This document shows positions 5,605-62,703 of a stretch of DNA of 64,000 nt, one piece after another. Source of the DNA: Sistotremastrum niveocremeum HHB9708. Taxonomy: Eukaryota; Basidiomycota; Agaricomycetes; Sistotremastrales; Sistotremastraceae. The position numbers were made by a program, and so were the translations under genes. The notes beneath the pieces were generated by a model. That model was not told where the DNA came from. It worked only from the letters and a program-made list of their open reading frames with translations, and made no database searches. Location: positions 757,028-821,027 of the forward strand of contig KV419406.1 of NCBI GenBank assembly GCA_001630475.1, in the 5' to 3' direction. Every line of letters starts with the position of its first letter. Within the stretch, counting starts at the first letter, position 1.

Positions 5605-7256
5605 ATGGCCCAAACGGCATCCACCGCCTTTTGGGAGATCCCAGAACTCATCGCCAGAACGACGACGTTTTTCGATTACCGAAGCCTAGTCGCGCTCTCT
5701 CAAGTCTCGAAAAGTCTATCGGAACATGCACTGGATGCTCTTTTCCGGGAGTGCATCAATATCTTCAAATTATTCGAAATATTATGTCCGCTCAAGATCA
5801 ATCGGAAGACGCAAGCTCTGGTTCGTTCAATACTTGAATAACAACAAATGAGATATCAATATATGTGCAGGAATTTGACAAATCCCTCACTGCGAAGCGC
5901 TGGAAAAGGTTTGAGCATTACAGGCGAAGGACTCGCATTGTCAAGATCGATCTCAATTTCGGTACAATCCAAACCATCTCTCCAAAAGTTATCTCTCAAC
6001 TCCGAGCTCAAATACCTGCCGGAGAGCCTTTTCTACCTTCCCTCAACAAAATGCATTGGGAAAGTGATAACCCAGGGTCTTATCAATTCGTCGAGCTGTT
6101 CGTACACGACAGACTTCGAGAACTTTTCTTATCGATCGCGGGATCGGATGTCAGCACAGTGCTTGGAAAATTGGTGCCAATGGCACCTAATCTTGAATCT
6201 TTGAAACTGATTGCAAGCGGTGAAATCGATGATGTCCCAAGGGCCCAAACCGCTGCAATCAGTGCCATTAATCTCATGACATCCCTACGTTCGTGTGCGT
6301 TGCCTTCGATTCTGGTAACGCCGGATATGATACGGATCCTTTCATACAAAAAGAGCGTCAAACAGCTCTGGCTTGCTCCCGTCGCTCTTTTTGTTGGGAG
6401 GAAGGCATCGACGCGTGACGTCATAGACAACGGAATTATCCCAGAGCGTTTTCCAAGTTTGACCGAACTCGCCATCAACAGTGCGCGTATGCTCGATTTT
6501 CTTCCCTATTTTTCCGACGGTCATCAATTACGAACTTTGCACATCGACATCGAAGATCAGACGCGTCTCCGCCAAACGCTGAATTTGATCGCCTCCTCAT
6601 GTAAGGCCTTGACGAACTTCAGTTTGCGATTGTCGGATTCCATCCCAGAGGATTTAATAACGTCTCCGCTGACAATGGAGATACTCCAACCTCTGCTCTC
6701 CTTGCACCTCATTGAAATTTTGGTCATCGAACATCCGCTCCCACCGAGCTTGAACGACGCCGATATGGAACAGTTCGCTACGAGCTTTCCGGAGCTTCAA
6801 TATCTCGAGCTATTCGTGCAATCCGGCTGTCGCAATGTTTTCCAGACAAATCTTCCAACGCTGGGATGTCTCATTCCATTCGCGCAACATTGCAGAAAGC
6901 TTATCGCATTGGGTATATACATGGACGCACGCCAAATCCCTCCTCCTCCACCAGTCCAAGCTCCACTCACTCAATTCGCACCATGTTTCGAACGACTTGA
7001 AGTCCATTGCTCACCCATCGACGAGCCGCTGCAAGTCCGAGACTTCCTCACGACTATTTTCCCTCCGGATGCGAAAGTTGATTTCGTACGATTTTCGAAG
7101 TGGCTTTCTACGATTGATGGGAAGATGAGCCGGGCGATGATCAATTCGGTTATGGCTTTGGATCATATTCCGGGAAAGTATAGGGAGGAGTGGATTGTCT
7201 TGTCGTGTCTCTTTAAGAAGGATTCCGAAAGGCTACCGAGGGATATTGTCAGATAG
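5605..7256 (+). CDS. F-box/leucine-rich-like protein, copy B
   Basis: Exons 5605-5820 and 5871-7256 give 533 residues; the 50-bp phase-0 intron (GTTCGT...TGCAG) lies at the position shared by copies A and C. Residues 8-45 form a degenerate F-box (FWEIPELIA, LSQVSKSLSEHALDALFRE). The rest is a run of leucine-rich segments of about 25-30 residues (LRTLHIDIED, LLSLHLIEILVIEHPLPP, LQYLELFVQS), as in fungal F-box/LRR proteins. These proteins usually act as substrate receptors of SCF E3 ligases; the substrate is unknown. The frame is intact. It faces the 260-residue minus-strand gene tail to tail. Confidence 0.85.
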
Positions 7257-8946: not shown

Positions 8947-10605
8947 ATGTCCCAAACGCGTACAGCTCTGCGAGCCTGTTGGGAAACCCCTGAGCTTATA
9001 GCAATCATCGTGGACATGCTCGATACCACATCACAGGCGCGCTGTGCTCGACTTTCGAGGGCTATCTCTGAGCATGCTCTAAATGCTCTGTATCGTAACG
9101 TCAAACAACTCCTTCCTATCTTCAGTCTATTGTGTCCAATACGCGAGGACGTGGACTCAGGCAGAATGGTACCGTCTTGCGATCACAAAGTCAGCTCTCT
9201 CAGGCTAAATATATTGTACTAGAATTTTACAAACTCCCTCAATTCAACACATTGGAACAGATTCAATTGGTATCGCTCCAGAATTCGCACTATCGAAACA
9301 TACATCTCGGAAGACCGCTTTGAGCGTTTATCCGATGAGTCCAGACTGGATCTTCTGACCACACTCCCTCAAGGTGAAATCATGTTCCCATCACTGAGAA
9401 AGTTGGTCTGGTTGGACAGCGAACCTGGGACAGCGAGCCTCATCCTGCTATTCTTGCATAAGAGACTGAGTGACGTCTCGCTGTTATTGGTGGCACGGGA
9501 TGTGCCCATGATTTTAGACTATCTCACGTACAGGTGCCCTGGACTGGACTCTCTAAACTTCGAGACGGTCGACATACCACATCAGGGTTTCGATTGGACC
9601 CCGGCCCGTGTAGCCTGCGCGAGGGTCGTCGACACTCTACCTTTGCTTCGGAGGTTGGTGCTCCCTCGGGCGCTACTCAATGCAGATGTTGTACATCGCC
9701 TATCTCTTCACCCTTGTCTACAGCGTATTTGTGTGACATTGTTCATGCTGAAGGACACGCATGAGTCTGGGATAGCGAGTCATCACGATTCTTCGCCAGC
9801 TCATCCTTTCGCCAATCTCCTGGCTCTCTCAATCGACAGCAAGAACTTATTGGAGTTCACAGATCCCCTCCTGAAAAGCCCTTGTCTCACAACCATCAAT
9901 GTCGATGTCTTTGACCAATCGGATCTATCTACCCTCATCCGATTGATCTCCACATCATCTCCGGGAGTAAAAAATCTCAGTGTCCAGACTGCACAGTACC
10001 CCGTCTTCGGAAGGGCGCTTCCACTGCCTATAAATCTTGCATTTCTTCTTCCGTTGTTGCGCTTGGAAAGCCTTCAGACCCTGGTCATAGACCACCCCGT
10101 TCCGCCCGAGCTTGATGATGATGAACTTGGCACGTTATCAGCCGCCCTTCCGGCACTCGTTCATTTCCAACTTTGCGTTCGCACTCATTGCGGGGCAGAC
10201 TACAAAGTCCCTACTTTGGGATGCCTCATACACTTTGCGAGAAATTGCCGGAAATTGGTATCGATTGGCGTATACATGGACGCATCGGTAGTCCCACGGG
10301 TCTCTCGACAAGATAAAAATGCTTTCGCACCCTGCCTTGAAGTACTAGAGGTTTGCTGCAGCAAAATCACATCACATCGGCGGGTCGCTGATTTTCTCGC
10401 CGCGATCCTCCCGCCACGAGCAACCATTAATGTGGCTACGCGCTCAAGCCGCTTGCAATACGTGGGAGCAGATACTGATGATGTATTTGATCCAGCTTCA
10501 GCAATGCTCTATGTGGATGAACAATTACTTGAATATCATTCCGAGTGGTGCTCTACAAGAGATCTGCTTGATAATTTGGAGTCGGTCAGAGAGTTACTGG
10601 CCTGA
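8947..10605 (+). CDS. F-box/leucine-rich-like protein, copy C
   Basis: Exons 8947-9168 and 9223-10605 with a 54-bp phase-0 intron (GTACCG...TACTAG); 534 residues, almost the length of copy B. The F-box-like segment reads CWETPELIAIIVDMLD and LSRAISEHALNALYRN, nearly the same as copy A. The leucine-rich body includes LLTTLPQGEIMFPSLRKL, LQTLVIDHPVPPELDDDEL and IHFARNCRKLVSIGVYMDA, each with a counterpart in A and B. The frame is intact, so C is more likely than A to be functional. Copies A and C are closer to each other than to B (shared MSQ start, LLTTLP), which suggests an inverted duplication around copy B. Confidence 0.85.
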
Positions 10606-19421: not shown

Positions 19422-19763
19422 ATGAATCAGGCGATTTACGCTCTGTGCTTCCATCTCTTTTGGGCTGCATGTTTCCTATGGATGACGGAGAACGCTAAGT
19501 CGACTTCTCACACTCGTGCTTCATCATACGTTCCGATGTACCGGAGCTGCAATTGGATTTTCACCAAAATGAACTACTCTATGATATTGATTCGTCTGGA
19601 CCGTGTGGTCAATTGCATTAAATCGGAAAATGCACACAATAATTCCCCACTGTTGACAGCCACTCGAGTTCGTTATCTACCACCCGTTGTCCGCCTCAAA
19701 CTCTACGAATGCCATTGCTCCTACTTTGGCGAAGTTCGAGCTTCAAAACCACAGAACAGGTGA
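19422..19763 (+). CDS. Candidate small secreted protein (weak)
   Basis: An ATG at 19422 opens a 113-residue frame whose first 20 residues are strongly hydrophobic (IYALCFHLFWAACFLW), like a signal peptide. A TATATA motif lies about 50 bp upstream. The remainder contains four cysteines, two of them in YECHC. No homology is recognised and codon use is unremarkable, so this may be a chance frame. Confidence 0.25.
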   Translation: MNQAIYALCFHLFWAACFLWMTENAKSTSHTRASSYVPMYRSCNWIFTKMNYSMILIRLDRVVNCIKSENAHNNSPLLTATRVRYLPPVVRLKLYECHCSYFGEVRASKPQNR

Positions 19764-20710
19764 TATTCTTGCGTAGGCTCGGGGTGGTTATACTTCCATC
19801 CAACATGGTGCTCAAAAGACCTATATACTTGCTTGGACGAATATTTCATCGAAGTCGACTCATGTCTTGGGCTGGAAGTAAAATGTGTGATGCGCAGTGT
19901 CGTCTGGCTCATCTCTGGCACACCTCTTCGCAATTTAACCGATACCGGAGTCCTAGGCCTAAGCTGCTGTCGCGAGATCATCAGATTCGAAGTTCGAACC
20001 AAGCTGTCCCGGAATCTGCCTGTGTCAGATGATTCAGGGGTGGGAGATACGTTGATTTTGACCACTGTGTCTCTCACGATCAACCCTCACTTTGCCAAGT
20101 AGTAGGTACCAGAGAAAAGCTTTTATAATCAAGCGACACTTGCCGAGCATCGCTTTCTCCGGCCGTGTTTGAAGCTGTCGGGAAATAGCAGTGGTTGACG
20201 CTCTTGCTGTCCAGGTGATCCAAGCTGTTCGCGCTTATTTCTCCAAATCGGACTTCTTGGTGGTCTGTGACTCTATCATGCGAGGCATTAGTGGACCCAT
20301 AGGATGGACCCTTCCCCATTTACGCTCGAAAATTCTCTCCCCCTGCCTTCACAAGATCATTTGACCTCCAGACACTTCTCATTTCACATCACTAGCTCAA
20401 TGATGCGATGAACAGACTGATCCAGTGTCTATGGGTAGAGCAATGGCACACACTTCATGACTGGGTGAAAGTTTCTCATTAAATCAACTTCGTCAATTGA
20501 ATTGAATTAAGCTTTCCGAACCAGAAGCCTCTTTCAACCCGTAGAGTCATTCACTTCAATTCCTGACAGGACGATCTGCATGCTTCTTCACCGGAGAAAT
20601 GTACCCCTTGATCCCACAAATGTGAGAAAACAGACATTCAATCATCGCGAACGAAGCCTAGAGACGCCTTCTGTGAAGAGACTCGATCACCTGTCGTACT
20701 GAAGCAAAGC

Positions 20711-20720
20711 GGTATAAATT
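20711..20720 (+). promoter_or_regulatory. TATA-box-like element of the metallothionein-like gene
   Basis: GGTATAAATT lies about 180 bp before the ATG at 20891, with a pyrimidine-rich tract (CTCTTCGTTCTTCTTCCTC) between them, as expected of an inducible or strongly transcribed fungal promoter. The 5' leader would be long. Confidence 0.4.
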
Positions 20721-20890
20721 CACACTTGTCGATGTGCTTGGTTTTAACCCCCACGCAAAACTCTTCGTTCTTCTTCCTCAAAAAACCGGTAGGTCCTCGC
20801 CACTCTGGCTATCCTCTTTTTTCACGACGTCTAATCAGTCTATCTCTCCTCATTCCTTATTCCCGATGACTTTACAGAAGGTCCACAGAC

Positions 20891-21169
20891 ATGTCAACTA
20901 AAATCACATCAGCATCTTTGAACCAGATCACTGGCAATAAAGGAACGAGCTCACGAACCGGTCATCCAAGCGATCGAGCGACGTCGGGGTCGACTGATCC
21001 TAGGGTACGTTCTACAAGAGCGCCTCACTTCTGACGTCTAAACTACTGGTACTTTCTTGCGCAGGGAATGTCGAGCGGTGTGAACGACCCACGATCGCTG
21101 TTGCTCCATGAGACCCATTGTTCATGCTCACCCTGTGGATGTGGCTTGAATTGCAATTGCATTCTGTAG
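20891..21169 (+). CDS. Metallothionein-like small protein with C-terminal Cys cluster
   Basis: Two exons, 20891-21004 and 21065-21169, with a 60-bp phase-0 intron (GTACGT...GCGCAG), encode 72 residues. The first 55 are Ser/Thr/Gly/Asn-rich and disordered (SSRTGHPSDRATSGSTDPR). The last 17 hold all six cysteines: HCSCSPCGCGLNCNCIL, a C-x-C-x2-C-x-C-x3-C-x-C pattern. Such spacing binds Cu(I) or Zn(II) in fungal metallothioneins, whose best known form has seven cysteines in 25 residues; here there are six, behind a long leader. Metal binding is inferred. Clean splice sites in phase and an upstream TATA box support a real gene. An alternative is a small cysteine-rich protein anchored by its C-terminus. 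Confidence 0.6.
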
Positions 21170-21380: not shown

Positions 21381-22311
21381 TCAAAGTTCGGTGTACGTGA
21401 AATCTCCGACAGCAGCACTGCAGCGTGATTAAATCATCAGTGCCAAGCCTGGAAAGAACTTGAATTGGGGAGTCTTACTCCGATGCTGTCATTCCGGTGA
21501 AGGTAGCTCTATATGTCCCAAATTTGAGACTTGAGATATACTTCAGATGATTTCTCTTGGTCATCAAATGAAAACTCACTAGGCCGAATCGCCACCCATG
21601 GCTCCCGCAGCAGAATACGAAATGACAGTGGCTCCGGACTTAGCGTTGGTCACTTTGTACGACAACGACCCACTCTGCCCGAAGGTGACTGTCATCGAAT
21701 GAAGAGTTGTTATACCGTTGTAATTCGTCAAAGCGACAGAAGGACATGTTCCACCGCAATCTGTCCTCGCAGTGGCATAGTCCTTTATCGAAAGTTTATT
21801 GGAGACTGCGTCGAGCGTGACGACAGGGCCATCAGCAGTCTCGTCAAAGACTTGCATGAGATGGAAAAAGTGAGTAGATGTTCCGACGGAGGAAGACAGC
21901 CATTGTTTCCATTGGAAAGAATATGAGGAGCCTGATGGGTGAGAGTCGCCACGCAGCTCGATCCGTTGGCGTGGAGAACTCAGGAAATTGGGATCGAGCT
22001 GTTCGTTCGGGTTGGAGGTCAATGTGAGGTTGTAACAGTCGCTTATCGCGGCTGCGGTGTTAGAACATCCTTTGTACAATATTCCTTGAAACGAGCCGAA
22101 ATAACGAAATCTGCGCATGATCATTTCCGAAGACGAACTAACCTGTGGACTGCCATTCCTTGATTCCATCAGGAACACCTGTTTCGCCGTATTCAATGGT
22201 GGTACCATTGGAGAGCTGGGTGACAGTAGCTCTACTCGAAATGGACAAAGCGCGAGCCAAACTCGCGGCGAGTACGCAGGCGAAGACGGATCGATAAATT
22301 GATAAAAACAT
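21381..22311 (-). CDS. Secreted concanavalin A-like lectin/glucanase-fold protein
   Basis: Exons 22311-22143, 22051-21580, 21529-21479 and 21417-21381 join in phases 1, 2 and 2 to give 242 residues. The N-terminus is a signal peptide (MFLSIYRSVFACVLAASLARAL). The body reads as a beta-sandwich resembling secreted fungal proteins of the concanavalin-like lectin/polysaccharide lyase group: QRIELRGDSHPSGSSYSFQW, FFHLMQVFDETADGPVVTLD, a CGGTC pair, and KFGTYRATFTGMTASDAAVG at the end. A carbohydrate-binding or lyase role at the cell wall or outside is likely, but no catalytic residues can be assigned. The last two exons are only 51 and 37 bp. Confidence 0.75.
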
Positions 22312-23403
22312 GCTTCGGGTGGGTTGAAGATCTTGCCCTATCCTGCGGTCTTATAGAAAGTCTCCTCCACATAATCTACCTCGCTACTCCCGCAAATGGT
22401 TTGATCACGATGAAGGCGGTCAGAAGACGAGATCGGCTCAGTGGCAGATCTGCCGAATTGCTGCCGGATGCTTCTGTCGCTTGGACCGGTGACACGCGAG
22501 CTCAAGGAACGCTGCTGAGGGCCATATTTGCAAGATTAACTTTCCTATCAGGCTATATTCCCAACTGGTATCATATGCTCCGAAATCTGGTCAGCCGCAG
22601 GCTCAAGATGTTTCGTTGTGGACAAAAGTGAGGGCCACATGATCCCCGACATCGATTTAATGCTCCTACTAGAAAAGACGGAAAGCTCGGAATTACTTGA
22701 CTTCTATGAACAGAGATCAATGCACTCTTAATCAGAAGTCTGCCAATGTCTACTTCGATGCCCGTTACTGATTGAAAGTACGGATATTCTCTGGTCCGTT
22801 GTAATCTCATGACCCAGGGAATGAGCCATTTCCTCGATACATCACGCTCAATATCTGTGCAGAAGGTATCGTGCATTATGCAGCAAATATGGTTCTGCCA
22901 ATTCCGTATGGTGATAAGAGCATGTGGACTGGTGAGCTGTGAGCGGGATAATATTCGTAAAGTTCGAAAACCTCATGGATAAAGAAGGAGTACCCATGAG
23001 GCCCGGAATACTAGAGACTTAGATATGTGATGAAATACGAAAGCGCCCAGGGATCAATTTAAGACAAGGTTTGTGTGGTGCCGGAGATCTGAACGTTCAA
23101 GAGCGCTGGCTGATTTTTAACCAAGCGAGATACAATATTCAGGAACAAGAATGTTCGATTATTACAAGTGACCCACGTATATCATGCGGATGATAAGTGC
23201 AGATGGATCCACCACAAGATGTTGTAGCGTTTGAGAGTCGTGATGAAATCAACAAAGCGATGTAGCCGGTATCAGCAATCAACCGGCGATGTTTCAGACT
23301 CCGAAGCCGGCCATTCCAAATCTTTCGGCAGACGTGGTTCATCCTCCACCAACCACCAAACAGCTTCCGTCCTACCTTCTCTGCTCAACACTCCCGCGTT
23401 ATA
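22312..23403. other. Intergenic spacer, 1.1 kb
   Basis: Divergent promoters of the secreted protein gene and the ArfGAP gene. Several 60-100-codon frames occur but none starts with ATG, splices or resembles a family. No repeat seen. Confidence 0.45.
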
Positions 23404-49698: not shown

Positions 49699-49769
49699 GC
49701 TTAAGTGGTTTAGTGGTAAAATCGCTGCTTGCCATGCAGTGGCCCCGTGTTCGATTCACGGCTTAAGCA
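49699..49769 (+). tRNA. tRNA-Gly(GCC): tRNA-Gly (anticodon GCC)
   Basis: A 71-nt cloverleaf: acceptor stem GCTTAAG/CTTAAGC with discriminator A; D arm containing TGGTTTAGTGG (also the A box); anticodon stem CTGC/GCAG with loop TTGCCAT, giving anticodon GCC for glycine GGC/GGT codons; T arm CCGTGTTCGATTCACGG containing the B box GTTCGATTC. No intron. A T-rich run downstream (CCTTTTTTATT) can end RNA polymerase III transcription. Confidence 0.95.
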
Positions 49770-54966: not shown

Positions 54967-57022
54967 GCAGCCGCAGGATCTCTCAAATTCTCCACCGCAA
55001 AGAAACGCGATGCAATACGGAAGTGTCATGGAAGTGGCGGTGACTCAACGTGTTTCGTGAGAGAATTGTCATGATGAAATGTGGGGATGGATGCGGATGC
55101 GGATGCGGATGCGGATGCGGGGTGGCGACGGGATTCGAGTGATTCTCTGATTCTCTGTTCCTCTAATTCTTTGATTCTTTGATTCTTGATTGTGTAATTC
55201 TTTCGGTACGGTACGAGATTTGTGTCGATCTTGATTTTGTGAGTTGGGTGTATCGAGGCTGTGAGGCCGTATGGACTACGTTTCTAGTTAATGAACATTA
55301 CGCTGCTTTTCGGATTCATCGGCCATGTACTTTTCAAATCGACTTGCATCGGAGAGGAACCTGCACCGTTCGAACCTTCGAATGCTAGGTGTAGTTCCGA
55401 CTGAGAACGAGCTTTACGAGAGTGAAATTTTCAAGATGCCAAGCTGCGAGAGCTTCAGTTCGATGCCACGAAGAAAACAGTCACGAGTGAGGACCTGGTA
55501 AGTGTCGAGCAATCAAGTCACGAAGTCAAGTGGATCATATTCCCGAGCACGCAGTCTTCAATTCATTCTCGTCATTGGGAGATGATCAAAAGCGCGTTGA
55601 GCGCGAATCAGTGTGAGACTGTGAGACTGTGAGACTGTGAGTAGCAAGACTAGTATCCGATGTGCAATGTGCAATGTGCAATGTGCATCAGGCTGACATG
55701 CTGACTGTCAAGGTGGCAGGTGCTAGCGCTGTGCTATAAGCACGTTGAGTAGGTCATATGCCAGGAACACCCATTGGCAACATACCCCATATACGTTGCA
55801 GTTACGCGCTCGAGAAATTCGAAAGTAGGAATAAGGATAACGGATAATGGGAAGGTTAATGGGAAGGTTAATGCGATTGAATGAGATTGAATGAGATTGA
55901 ATTGGAGATTTCATTTTAGATCTGATCGTTGTCGATAGGACTAGACTGGTTTGTGCGAACACTGCGAAGGAGGTCACTGGACCACTGGACCACCGGGATT
56001 CCGACTACGAATGCGAGTGTGATTGCGGGTGTGAGTGAGGGGTCAGGGTACTAGTAGGTGAGGTGAGGAAGAGGTTCTAGTGCGTTACGAGAGGAGAGGA
56101 AATAAGCGCGATTGTAGTTCGGGATCGAGGACCGGGACCGGGGTGTTAGTCATGATCAGGCAAAGGAACTTCTTGAGGAAGGGATGGGGAAGGGTTATCT
56201 ATGCGAAAGTGAAGATTAGATTTGGGAGGGTGATGGCATGGGCGGTATCGACGTGCGTTTTTACGTTTTGTGTGTTTTGGTGTACCTGTACTAGTGTTGC
56301 CGGTCTTCGTCGGAAGAAGACTCTCGATTGCAAGAGTGAGAAGAGTGAGATAGAGAGGAGGCGAGGATGGTGAGAAGGAATGACTGGGATTGGGAGTGTA
56401 TTCACAGGATGGGAGGAAGGTTGGGTGCGAGGATGGACATCTAGCCAATTGGAATTGAATAGGAATTGAATAATTGGGGGTCTAAACAAACTGAAGCCTG
56501 ATCGTGTTAACATATTGACGTTCGTGCTAGTGATCGTACTGTAAGTATCCTGAGCCTGAGCGCGATTACGAATTAGCATTGGAATTGGATCTCGGAGCTC
56601 AGGTGCACAGTCTGCACGTGTAAGGGGTGAGGATCTGAGTGCTTGGTTCTGGGATATCGCCACCTATAGTCTAGCCTCACTACCTAGTGCCCCTGGTGAA
56701 ACTAGAATTAAGATTCCCAGAATCTGATCAAGGGATCATACCAGACTTCTTCGGCGCACTCCGATCTTAGCGGCCTGCATGCCCAAAAGCGGCGACGCCG
56801 AGAAGCCGGAAGGCCGGGAGTAGGGCTCGGAAAGTCATTTGCCATATCCGGAGCAGGTGAAAAATTGTTTTTCGGATATCGTATTTGAAAAAAATGGGGA
56901 CCTGGAGGATTTGTCTGGATCGCCGACGCAATGCACTCGAGCTCTCGTTAGTTATTCCCACTTGTACTTGTACACTCGCGGTACTATACATACATCCCTC
57001 GCCTCGCCTCGACATCAGAGCA
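54967..57022. other. Gene-poor, simple-repeat-rich region, 2 kb
   Basis: Tandem repeats stand out: (GGATGC)n at 55086-55120, (GTGAGACT)n at 55611-55641, (ATGTGCA)n at 55661-55687 and (GATTGAATGA)n at 55873-55903. No supported gene. Confidence 0.6.
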
Positions 57023-57621: not shown

Positions 57622-60600
57622 TACATCTACCAGGTGAGTTCCACTCTTCCCCACTAGCGAAGCAAAGCTGATGGACGGTGCCAGCATCTCATCCATGATT
57701 TATTATCTCGGACTTTCCGTTTTCCTTCATCTTCATCCGATCTTCACTTCATTAATATTCGCTTCATTTCTTTCTTGGATATGGCTATGGATATTTTCGA
57801 GTCATTCATCTCATTCTCATTCTCATCTCATCGCATGCACGTCCGGACTCTCTCCTCCTCATCTACTCGCATAACCTATAGACTTTCGTCTCCCTTCCTC
57901 TCCTCTTTCACATCATGATTCCTCTTCCTTGAATCCTTCGTAATATTGTCCAATTGTCCTCGTTATCCTCGCTTTCTTCCTTTGGTTCCAGTGCTTATTC
58001 TATTCCTTTGCATCACCCCGTGGACCTCCGCCGCCGCCGCCGTCATCAACGCTATCTTCCTCATCCCCACCTTCGTCCCTAAAACAGACCGGACCCTGCA
58101 GCCTACTCCACCCTCAGGCTCATCCGCATCGTCATCGTCATCCATTCTCCACCAACGACCCTCGATCTTCCTCCCTCTTCAGATACACATCGTATCTCAT
58201 CCCATCCAAAAAGGGTAACGGACTATTTCGTCACCCCAGAATATATTAATACATCCATCCATACATCCCCTCCCTAAACCATACAACCCTCCCAATCATC
58301 TTAGGCTCATCCTCTTCATCCACATTTCACCCTATCCAGTCCCTCATCCCGCAACCAACGCGGATCCATTTCCTACTCGCTTATTGTTCAATTGTCCAAT
58401 TCCAATTATCCGCTCACCCGTGATCTTCATTTCGGGGTGCTATCTACTTCCACTTCCTCTTGTCGTAGCATGAGAGCGCTAGCGCTAGCGCTTCTTCCGG
58501 AGCCGGATACCAAATCACATCACATCTCACGTTGAAGCGAAGCGAAGCGCTGGATGATGCAACGACGCAACGCTGCGTTTCCGGACTCTGGACTTTGGCG
58601 TCTACGGTATGCGGTGCGATAGGTGCGATGCTGCCTGAGGCGCTCGTGGGTCTAGGCTTTGCGAGCTTTTGCACTCCATCCCGTAGCGTCTAGGTATAGC
58701 TGGTGCGGGTACGTGATACTGGCATCGGTCGCATCGGTCGCATCGGTGTGAGAGTTGTGAGTTCTACGAGTCGGAGGCTGGCGGGTGAATGAAGTGGATG
58801 AAGGCGGAGGATAAGCGTGGATGATAACAATATCGTACGTGGTCTTCACCTAAATTATCATCGCTGTTCTCATCTCCATTTGCGTTTCAGATACCTCCCT
58901 CCGTTCCTCGCGCTCAGCACATCGCCTGCTCGCTAGGCGTATACCGTATCCTTCGACATCCGTCTACATGTCATGGAATGACATCCACTTACCACCTACC
59001 CCCTCCGTGACCCTCTCACCCTCCATCATCTCCGAATCCGATCACTCAATTCAGCGATCCATCTCGTCCACCCTCACACTCAATTCTCAAGTATCCGCCT
59101 CACATCACATCACTTCTCCACCTCCTAAACCTCTCCGATTCGGCTCACATCCCAAACCAAACCAAACCAAACCAAACCAAACCAAAGCAAAACCTTCCAT
59201 CATGTCTCTCTCAACCTCAGCCTCAGCCTCAGCCTCCTTCTCCGTCCGCGTCTTCGTCTTCGATGAACCCGGAATTTCTGGAAATGACAATGACAATGAA
59301 ATATGTACGAGTAAGGTACAGTACCATATAACATGCACATATCTTTATATATCATATGATATATCTCTGCCTCCGCCATCTGTCTTCCTTCCGCTCCCCT
59401 TCCCTTCGCCCTTCCTCATTCGCCCTTCACAGTCACCTCGTCTTCTCACTTCTCAGTTCTAACTTCTCACTTCACTTCGCTCATCCTCCTGTTCTCTTCT
59501 TCGCATCTGGTCTCCGCGTCGTTTAGTAACTCTAGTAACCTTTCGCCTTCGTACCCGGAAAATTGTGTGCACGTTATTTGAGTCTTAAATCCAATCCGAT
59601 TCGATTCGATTCGATTCGATTCGATAATAATATAATTCCCGTTCTCGTTCCTGTTCCTGTTCCTGTTCCTGTCAATGTCCCTTGTCTTTCCTGATAATAA
59701 CGTCGATCGATCCCAGAATGATGCTTCCCGCTCTGTCGAATCTTGATCTTTGACATCGACACGCAAGATTCCTGATTCCTGATTCCTGATTCCTGATTCC
59801 AGTCACTATAAATTTTGCCGAAGCTGTTCCAAGCTTCCTTTCACGTACATATGCTTGCCCTGCTCCTTCACCCGGCCGGATAAACAGTCTTGACGACTTG
59901 ACGACTTGACACTTGACGAGTTGGACGTCACGGTCAATGATACTGGTTCTTCGATCGATCTTCTGCGCCACCCTGCCAGTGAGGTTAATTTTGTACGCGT
60001 TTGATGCGGCTTATTTCTATCATGCCATGCCATTGATCAATGTCGCCGAGGTTGTCCAGTGTCCAGTGTCCATGCACGATATTGAAGTACGGGAATCGAT
60101 CGATCGCTGGTGATGACAAGGTTCTTCTCTAAATGAAACGCTTCCTCCTTCAGAACTGATGTACCGGAAAGTGTTGGAAGTGTTGGAAGTGCCAGAAGTG
60201 TCAGAATTCGTCGGCGGCGGTATATCTTGCCCGTCGATCATTCCACCCAGACTCATACTCACACTCATAAATACCTTACGCGTATGATCTGAAAGGTACG
60301 ACTAGTACTGTACTCGGAGGCGTACGAGTACGTACATGTCTTTATTTATTAGATTCAGGAACGATATATATACGTGTACGTGTACGTGTGAGTGGATGAA
60401 CGTTTCGTGCTTTATGTTCATTTCGATGCTTTTCCGCCCTTTGCGCGTGCACGAGCACGGGCACGAAGTGAGCGGGAAATCCTCGGCGCAGGACGAAAAT
60501 GTTAAACCATTATTTCAAGATTCGAGGCGATCGATCGATCGAGATTCGCCTCCTCTCATCCTCAACGATATCTATATATAGAGAGATAAAATTTTCAAAC

Positions 60601-61223
60601 GCATAGGTCAAGAGTGCGTGAAAAGGCCAAACAAGAGTATCTCCGAATTTGTTCCAGGTGGGAGAAATCATAAGAGGAAAGAGAGGAAAGAGAGGAAAGA
60701 GAGGAGAGGAGAAGACAGGGGAAGGGAAGAGGAGGAGGTGCGACAAATATCGGGAAATATCGGAAGATGGATAATCCCGCTCCGCCATCCACGCGAACCA
60801 CACTGATTTGGATATGGAAGCGAAGCGTGCGTTTGAGATTTGAGATGGAGTGGAGCGAGTCTGGACCTGACTCGGAGACGTGGACCGTTGAACGTGAAGA
60901 CTTGGAGCATATGCATAAGGTTATGTGGGGCCTTATGTCAATGTAGGTTATTTCGGAAGTTGTTCTCGCTTCATTTCGAGTTTCGACTAATAAGCTGTGT
61001 TCAGGTCGAGAATTTGGGAATCTAGGTTGATTCGTTAGATCATGTAAGAGCTTGGGCTCTAGTTCGTTCTAGAGCTCGTACTATCAGTGCTCGTTATAGA
61101 TACAGATACAGATAAAGATATTATTAGTAGTGGGATTGTAGGACAGTCGCCAGACGCGAGATCTTGGATTATGATTATACCTACATGAATTTCTTAGGCT
61201 ACGCGATGCCTAATCAATCTAGT
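57622..61223. other. Gene-poor region dense in short tandem repeats, 3.6 kb
   Basis: Repeats include (CCAAA)n at 59153-59186, (TTCGA)n at 59598-59624, (TGTTCC)n at 59650-59672, (TTCCTGA)n at 59768-59799, (GTGTAC)n near 60376-60390 and a purine-only tract of (GAGAGGAAA)n at 60673-60745. A hairpin GAGGCGA...TCGCCTC surrounds GATCGATCGATCG at 60527-60556. I find no supported gene. Confidence 0.6.
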
Positions 61224-61625
61224 TCATTTTGATCCTGAGAGGGAGCGTTTTTTAGAACGGAGGGAGGAGAGGAGGGAGCGGTATCCTTCGGATGCGGAAG
61301 GAGACTTGGGATAGAGTGCTCGGCCTTTAAATTTTTGCACGTGCATATTGGAAGGGGATGTTCCGACGAAGAATTGTTCGTCAATCTTGTCGACGGCGTC
61401 GACGGCGGCAGAGTTGATATTGGCGGGGGATAGGGATTTGGGAGATCGGAAGAGGTTGAATGGATTGAGGATGCGTTCGGGAGTAGTACCCTCAACCGAG
61501 GAAACGGAGAGGGAGGAGAGGGATGAGAAGGAGGATGGCGGTGAGAGGAGGTATGCGGTGTATATGAGCACCGCGGCGAGGGAGGATATGAGAACCCATT
61601 TAAAGAGGGAGAGTGTTCTTCTCAT
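61224..61625 (-). CDS. Small single-pass membrane protein (hypothetical)
   Basis: From the ATG at 61625 the frame gives 133 residues: MRRTLSLFKWVLISSLAAVL followed by IYTAYLLS, a classic type II signal anchor, then a Ser-rich stalk (SSFSSLSSLSVSSVEG) and a short lumenal part (NSAAVDAVDKIDEQFFVG, GRALYPKSPSASEGYRSL) with a basic end. No family recognised. The frame is open further upstream through a (ATTCGATATG)n repeat, which supports the ATG chosen here. An alternative is a chance frame in purine-rich DNA. Confidence 0.45.
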   Translation of the reverse strand: MRRTLSLFKWVLISSLAAVLIYTAYLLSPPSSFSSLSSLSVSSVEGTTPERILNPFNLFRSPKSLSPANINSAAVDAVDKIDEQFFVGTSPSNMHVQKFKGRALYPKSPSASEGYRSLLSSLRSKKRSLSGSK

Positions 61626-62703
61626 TTTGATCTCTTCGTGATGGGATCGATATGATTCGATATGATTCGATATGATTCGATATGATCCGATGGATGAGGC
61701 AGAGATATCGTTCGAGGGTTGTAGCGAGGGTCTTAGCGAGGGAATCGGTGAGACTGAGGTGAGACTGGACGTGATATGAGGGTGAACCCAAAGATGGGCC
61801 TGAGGAGGGACCCAAGAGCGATGGAAAGAGAGAAGACATGGAGCGATATAGAACGTTGTATACCAGCCTAAACCATCGGATGAGAGTGAGGGTGTTTCAC
61901 AATATAATGATAGCACACTTCGGAGGTCTCACATACGTCCTCGCCCTCGATGATCGAGTCTGGTCTGGTCTTCTGTGAAACCGACTGCAACTGCAACGTC
62001 ATCAACCGACTTCAAAGCAGACAAAGAACATCACCCGTCTCCGAATCATCCAAAGCCAGTCATCTTTCTCTTGCTCTTTCTCCGCATCAACGATAACGCG
62101 ATGAACGCCCATCCATCCCACTCCCATCGAATTTACCTTCTCGCTCCCACAGCGGGCCGGACACAAAAATCCCAAGACATTATACTGAGATTATGGTGAG
62201 ATTCAGTCTGATGATTTCAGCTTTTACTCACTGAGAAAATTCTGTGAAAATAGGCATGATCTCAACGTATTTCCGAAAAAGCCGCTATTCTCAGCATTTT
62301 CTCAGATTTTTCTCACTTCGAAGACTCGGGGATAAAGGAACACAAACTTAGAATATTCCCACCATATTCCTTTGGGAAAATTGTCCAGTGACCGCTGTGT
62401 CCTTCCCGCACGTGATCGAGTGTCAAGCAAAGAAGAATCCGACCGCCGTCCGGCTTGATCGGCACTCGGCTCGGCTAGAACGTGGAAGGTGGATGAAAAA
62501 GCATTGAGCGCTTATTCATGAGTAAGTCTCGACTGAGCCTGAGAGGATAGGTGAGGCTACTTACTTACTCCTATCGTTCATCGTACTCATTCACCTAACC
62601 AATCCAGTCCATTCCAGTACTAACTAACTCTCCAGGAATATTTCTGCACAACTGAATTACATTGACCGAGACCTGAGAATTGACTGGAAGATCACGATTG
62701 AAT
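61626..62703. other. Spacer before the phosducin-like gene
   Basis: Contains a (ATTCGATATG)n tandem repeat at 61645-61690 and an AT-rich stretch with repeated TTCTCA/TGAGAA words at 62200-62320. No gene supported. Confidence 0.45.

Follow-up and report, generated by a model that had tools for sequence, protein, structure and literature searches.

The interval 20891..21169 on the plus strand of the 64,000-nucleotide stretch of DNA analyzed here (the window) ends in a cluster of six cysteine codons, raising the question of whether it belongs to a functional gene and, if so, whether the product could bind metal. To our knowledge, metallothioneins have been thinly sampled in fungi other than mushrooms and model yeasts, and gene callers easily overlook short Cys-rich genes that are split by introns. 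A real gene at this position would offer a compact domain of six Cys behind a leader that naturally lacks Cys, and hence a test of the minimum number of cysteines for a fungal metal store. If it is not a gene, the locus would be an example of a run of TGY codons imitating a metal-store gene.

Gene model and predicted product

The sequence, the reading frame and the splice signals were read directly from the DNA. A coding sequence of 72 codons plus a stop was obtained by joining 20891-21004 to 21065-21169 (plus strand) across a 60-nt intron. The features of the locus were as follows.

20713..20718, plus strand: TATAAA, a match to the TATA-box consensus only, 178 nt before the ATG
20789..20877, plus strand: predicted 5'-UTR intron (GTAGGT ... 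CTAAT ... TTTACAG)
20866..20901, plus strand: short ORF overlapping the start codon, beginning with the sole ATG within 20741-20890; lost if the 5'-UTR intron is spliced
20891..21004, plus strand: coding exon 1, 114 nt from the ATG, residues 1-38; part of the leader, Ser/Thr/Gly-rich and without Cys
20984..21004, plus strand: heptapeptide SGSTDPR, the first of two similar heptapeptides flanking the intron
21005..21064, plus strand: predicted intron of 60 nt, with donor GTACGT, branch-like site CTGAC and acceptor GCGCAG; gives an in-frame stop when retained
21065..21169, plus strand: coding exon 2, residues 39-72, followed by the TAG stop (21167-21169)
21074..21094, plus strand: heptapeptide SGVNDPR, the second of the two, on the other side of the intron
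21119..21160, plus strand: six-Cys cluster CSCSPCGCGLNCNC, residues 57-70, followed by Ile-Leu-stop

A 60-bp intron had been proposed in the original prediction, and consensus splice signals were found for it, the intron itself being predicted from sequence. Since this intron carries an in-frame stop, splicing of the presumed transcript would be required for production of the Cys tail, if translation starts at the ATG at 20891. All GT/AG pairs giving introns of 40 to 120 nt were enumerated from this ATG. Introns 20983-21075 (donor GTCGGG) and 20989-21075 (donor GTCGAC) reached the Cys frame but had poor donors and were rejected, and 21005-21064 was the sole intron found for this stop under strict consensus. 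The count of upstream ATGs assumes a transcript start at about 20741, and a further ATG lies just upstream of that position. When 20,000 random window positions were examined, 1.4% had an intron comparable to the one predicted in the 5'-UTR and ending at most 30 nt upstream.

The predicted product has 72 amino acids and a mass of 7.4 kDa (MSTKITSASLNQITGNKGTSSRTGHPSDRATSGSTDPRGMSSGVNDPRSLLLHETHCSCSPCGCGLNCNCIL). It contains six Cys residues in all, at positions 57, 59, 62, 64, 68 and 70, and the pattern C-x-C-x2-C-x-C-x3-C-x-C given by the translation bore out both the six-Cys C-terminal pattern and the coordinates that had been proposed. The spacers between the cysteines of the cluster were Ser, Ser-Pro, Gly, Gly-Leu-Asn and Asn, and no aromatic residue (Phe, Tyr or Trp) was present in the 72-aa protein. 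Cysteine accounted for 6 of 72 residues (8%) and for 6 of the last 16. The leader, comprising residues 1 to 56, was Ser/Thr/Gly-rich, basic and polar (GRAVY -0.88) and is probably disordered. It had correctly been described as free of Cys, with a length of 55 residues where 56 were counted, and the C terminus, which had been given as a LeuIle-type end, was found to read in the order Ile-Leu-stop.

Coding potential and chance expectation

The two-exon model was scored at stops preceded by 30 to 60 open codons in a strict form (an ATG, a first exon of 60 nt or more, the signals GTRNGT, CTRAY and YAG, an intron of 45 to 80 nt and a second exon of 30 codons or more), this criterion being set after the gene model was known. 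It was present at 7 of 925 comparable window stops, that of the microprotein included, versus 4 of 5,207 simulated stops.

Coding potential was scored with a third-order periodic Markov model, for which 200 kb of sequence from outside the window served as training data. This model replaced a simple codon model (ORFs of at least 220 codons), which was noisy and took a single candidate from its intron scan and which had also given no support. The coding score of the microprotein CDS was -0.08, the 2nd percentile among windows taken from a set of ten ORFs known or likely to be coding, and 89% of the random open frames of the window scored at least as high. The true frame beat the other five in 10 of 10 validation ORFs; that of the microprotein beat four of five, with one antisense frame scoring higher. 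Codon usage lends the gene no support, in a periodic model that is weak for short Ser- or Cys-rich proteins. When 1 kb of upstream DNA was scanned with consensus motifs for copper, zinc and stress responses, one Ace1-type site was detected about 690 nt away, no MRE was found, and neither the Ace1-type site nor the few STRE, HSE and GATA matches were counted as support.

The chance expectation for the Cys array was determined by simulation. Among 10,097 third-order simulations of a 64-kb window, three C-x-C pairs with gaps of 1 to 6 occurred in 31 (0.0031 per window; 0.3%), the exact six-Cys spacing in 2, and a polar-spacer array (polar share 0.88 or higher) followed within about 5 codons by a stop in 1; these figures flatter the case, since the pattern was chosen after being seen. 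The exact pattern was observed in 0 of 310 first-order window simulations. Cys density by itself is not rare, with at least six Cys in 14 open codons appearing in 13 of 310 first-order simulations and also elsewhere in the window, in a simple repeat.

A further 200 kb of this genome contained one more three-C-x-C array, which is above the simulated rate. This array (L019, minus strand, frame 0, codon 1474, CLCLFPCLCPMYSCFCS-stop) has the pattern C-x-C-x3-C-x-C-x4-C-x-C directly before the stop, the spacing that remains when the first Cys is taken from the mushroom heptaCys motif considered below. Its spacers are hydrophobic, its frame has a stop shortly upstream and a gene-like setting is absent. 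The L019 array is probably due to chance.

Genomic setting and search for relatives

The genome comprises 34.7 Mb in 111 contigs. Its introns and its ArfGAP and Gpi16 genes mark it as eukaryotic; a basidiomycete source is assumed from the original prediction, the short introns and the copper-fist matches described below, and a 5.8S query had no match in the genome. Upstream of the microprotein gene, minus-strand ORFs were assigned by Pfam to a beta-mannosidase-like GH2 gene, with matches between 15312 and 18885, and an ORF at 19724-20086 had no Pfam match. Downstream, a 252-codon ORF at 21579-22337 (minus strand), convergent with the microprotein gene, matched neither Pfam nor PDB entries and was followed by another ORF without a match and then by an ArfGAP gene. 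A Gpi16 gene with a conserved exon was also among the neighbors. Ten ORFs of the window were scanned with Pfam, and none was a metal gene.

No second copy was found in protein searches of the whole genome, in each of which one first-look candidate was scored, and a Neurospora metallothionein query gave no match to the genome in a search run without a positive control. Comparison with Pfam and NCBIfam profiles at E values up to 10 listed no match, HMMER filters dropping most weak matches. A single PDB match (E value of 0.28, residues 5-61) lay mostly in the leader and was dismissed. Relatives were also absent from viral and prokaryote contig collections, which are the wrong place for fungal genes; the exon of the neighboring Gpi16 gene likewise had no match in the viral contigs, so the empty result there is uninformative on fungi.

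Four copper-fist matches were present in the genome (G000:C17:624938, C37:167138, C18:379214 and C48:40271). All four began at profile position 11 or 12, which suggests an intron at a shared place inside the domain. Regulators of the copper-fist class drive metallothionein genes in other fungi, and these matches indicate that regulators of this class are present in the genome. Hydrophobin and phytochelatin-synthase searches matched nowhere, the 14 control genomes included, and hence do not imply absence from this genome.

Comparison with known metallothioneins

Agaricomycete metallothioneins are proteins of at most 59 aa with a conserved C-terminal heptaCys motif, C-x4-C-x-C-x2,3-C-x-C-x4-C-x-C (PMC12508003), so that C-terminal Cys clusters are normal in mushrooms. 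The statement in the original prediction that known fungal metallothioneins have their cysteines spread along their length was thus overstated. Like the proteins described there (AcMT2, PiMT1, LbMT1 and others), the microprotein is a small fungal protein with three C-x-C pairs near the C terminus, and its gene has a short intron, as do two Agaricus metallothionein genes with introns of about 50 bp (PMC12508003). In contrast to this motif, the microprotein lacks the first Cys, where a Leu is present, and has a last gap of 3 instead of 4; its length of 72 aa also differs from the limit of 59 aa.

The copper metallothionein of Neurospora crassa (1t2y) shares with the microprotein a C-x-C-x3-C-x-C element, a C-x-C-x2-C step and Ser/Gly/Asn spacers. 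However, the Neurospora protein is leaderless and has 25 aa with seven Cys (C-x-C-x5-C-x-C-x3-C-x-C-x2-C), while the microprotein has six in another order. Two BLASTP overlaps, of 7 and 11 residues, were obtained between the two proteins.

The exact spacing was encountered in plants. Table 1 of PMC3677015 gives CXCXXCXCXXXCXC within the C-terminal domain of MT2-2 and the gaps in opposite order in MT2-1, and the gap order of MT2-1 also appears in a sweet potato metallothionein (PMC5430376). The microprotein thus resembles plant type-2 metallothioneins in having a C-terminal Cys domain after an intermediate region, with a spacing identical to that of MT2-2 (PMC3677015). The plant proteins differ in having an N-terminal Cys domain too, whereas residues 1 to 56 of the microprotein are Cys-free, and MT2-2 has three more Cys beyond the six (PMC3677015). 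In a narrow search of the open-access literature, CXCXXCXCXXXCXC and the reversed-gap spacing were found in plant reports only, and no matching report of a Tremellomycetes metallothionein or of an N-terminally extended metallothionein was obtained.

Several general properties of metallothioneins were observed, namely, a mass below 10 kDa, C-x-C motifs and the absence of aromatic residues. The Cys content of the whole protein (8%) was outside the usual metallothionein range of about 15 to 35%. Among basidiomycete metallothioneins, CMT1 and CMT2 of Cryptococcus neoformans are much longer and have Cys blocks repeated along their length. The description of the product as metallothionein-like is made plausible by the three C-x-C pairs, the mostly small and polar spacers and the lack of aromatics but did not extend to family membership, as the microprotein had the defining pattern of neither the Agaricomycete heptaCys, the Neurospora-type nor the plant type-2 metallothioneins. 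Compared to known metallothioneins, the microprotein is unusual in its leader, 56 residues long and free of Cys; it is possibly a variant of a known metallothionein kind.

Proposed function and alternative explanations

Three C-x-C pairs whose spacers are mostly Ser, Gly, Asn or Pro, in a protein without aromatic residues, are most naturally read as a metal-thiolate cluster, and a metallothionein-like interpretation is plausible on the sequence. On balance, we favor the view that a two-exon gene of a basidiomycete-like fungus gives rise to a small, putatively cytosolic metallothionein-type metal-thiolate microprotein that serves as a minimal single-domain buffer or store. The C-terminal 14 residues would wrap the metal as a single metal-thiolate cluster. 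By analogy to the copper metallothioneins of fungi, its three C-x-C pairs could bind a number of Cu(I) ions, or else one or two Zn or Cd ions. The bound metal would probably be Cu(I). As a minimal single-domain metallothionein, the microprotein would buffer or store this metal, its gene may be induced by metal, and the 56-residue leader may serve to space the cluster or to aid solubility. This view also draws on the TATA-like box, the predicted 5'-UTR intron that would remove the upstream ATG, the spacings shared with the Neurospora and plant MT2-2 proteins and the copper-fist matches; counting against it are the low coding score, the lack of Pfam, NCBIfam and paralogue matches, the single distant Ace1-type site with no MRE, and the low Cys content of the whole protein.

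The main challenge to this buffer or store is that there is no gene at all and that a chance run of TGY codons lies in intergenic DNA between minus-strand genes, its gene-like look being the product of a fitted intron. The weak codon usage and the better-scoring antisense frame are in keeping with a chance origin, as are the lack of relatives and paralogues in the genome, viral and prokaryote collections searched, the appearance of dense Cys runs in the first-order simulations and the second three-C-x-C array, which has hydrophobic spacers and likewise ends just before a stop, in the other 200 kb examined. Against these observations stand the single occurrence of a polar-spacer array with a near stop among the third-order windows and the rarity of the strict two-exon model in both window and simulated stops, each judged by a criterion set post hoc. 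We regard the chance reading as fairly unlikely and the presence of a real protein-coding gene as likely.

Given a gene, the tail could have a purpose other than storage. The position of every Cys at the extreme C terminus, after a polar leader, would suit a membrane anchor that is palmitoylated, or prenylated at the non-canonical -CNCIL end, and has no metal site. Such lipidation appears very unlikely, as the last four residues, N-C-I-L, do not form a CaaX box, Pfam gave no hit to Rab or any other GTPase, and the C-x-C pairs are regular with mostly small and polar spacers. A peptide dedicated to donating or sensing metal, whose leader would bind a partner while the C-terminal cluster passes on or senses Cu(I), is suggested by the single compact cluster at the end of a long leader without Cys, an arrangement more like a tethered ligand than a bulk store. 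This role seems improbable, in that the leader has no known partner motif and the ten Pfam-scanned ORFs of the window include no metal gene. It is more doubtful still that the microprotein represents a lineage-specific fungal class in which a terminal Cu(I)-thiolate cluster on a disordered leader is a targeted donor or sensor rather than a bulk store. The original suggestion of a new subtype, or of a small metal donor tethered through its leader, is unproven, and the tethering and donor roles are speculation.

Other features of the window

ORFs 5838-7256 and 9223-10605 (plus strand) were neighboring, long, diverged paralogues with 30% identity over 458 aligned columns, whose products resemble fungal F-box/LRR-type proteins. 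Short, mostly perfect tandem arrays with periods of 5 to 16 were present at 55089-55902 and 58722-60705. The GC skew was strong and of opposite sign in two adjoining segments, at -0.31 in 58001-60000 and +0.26 in 60001-62000. A tRNA-Gly gene (gcc) at 49699-49769 (plus strand) was the sole tRNA gene reported by ARAGORN in the window.
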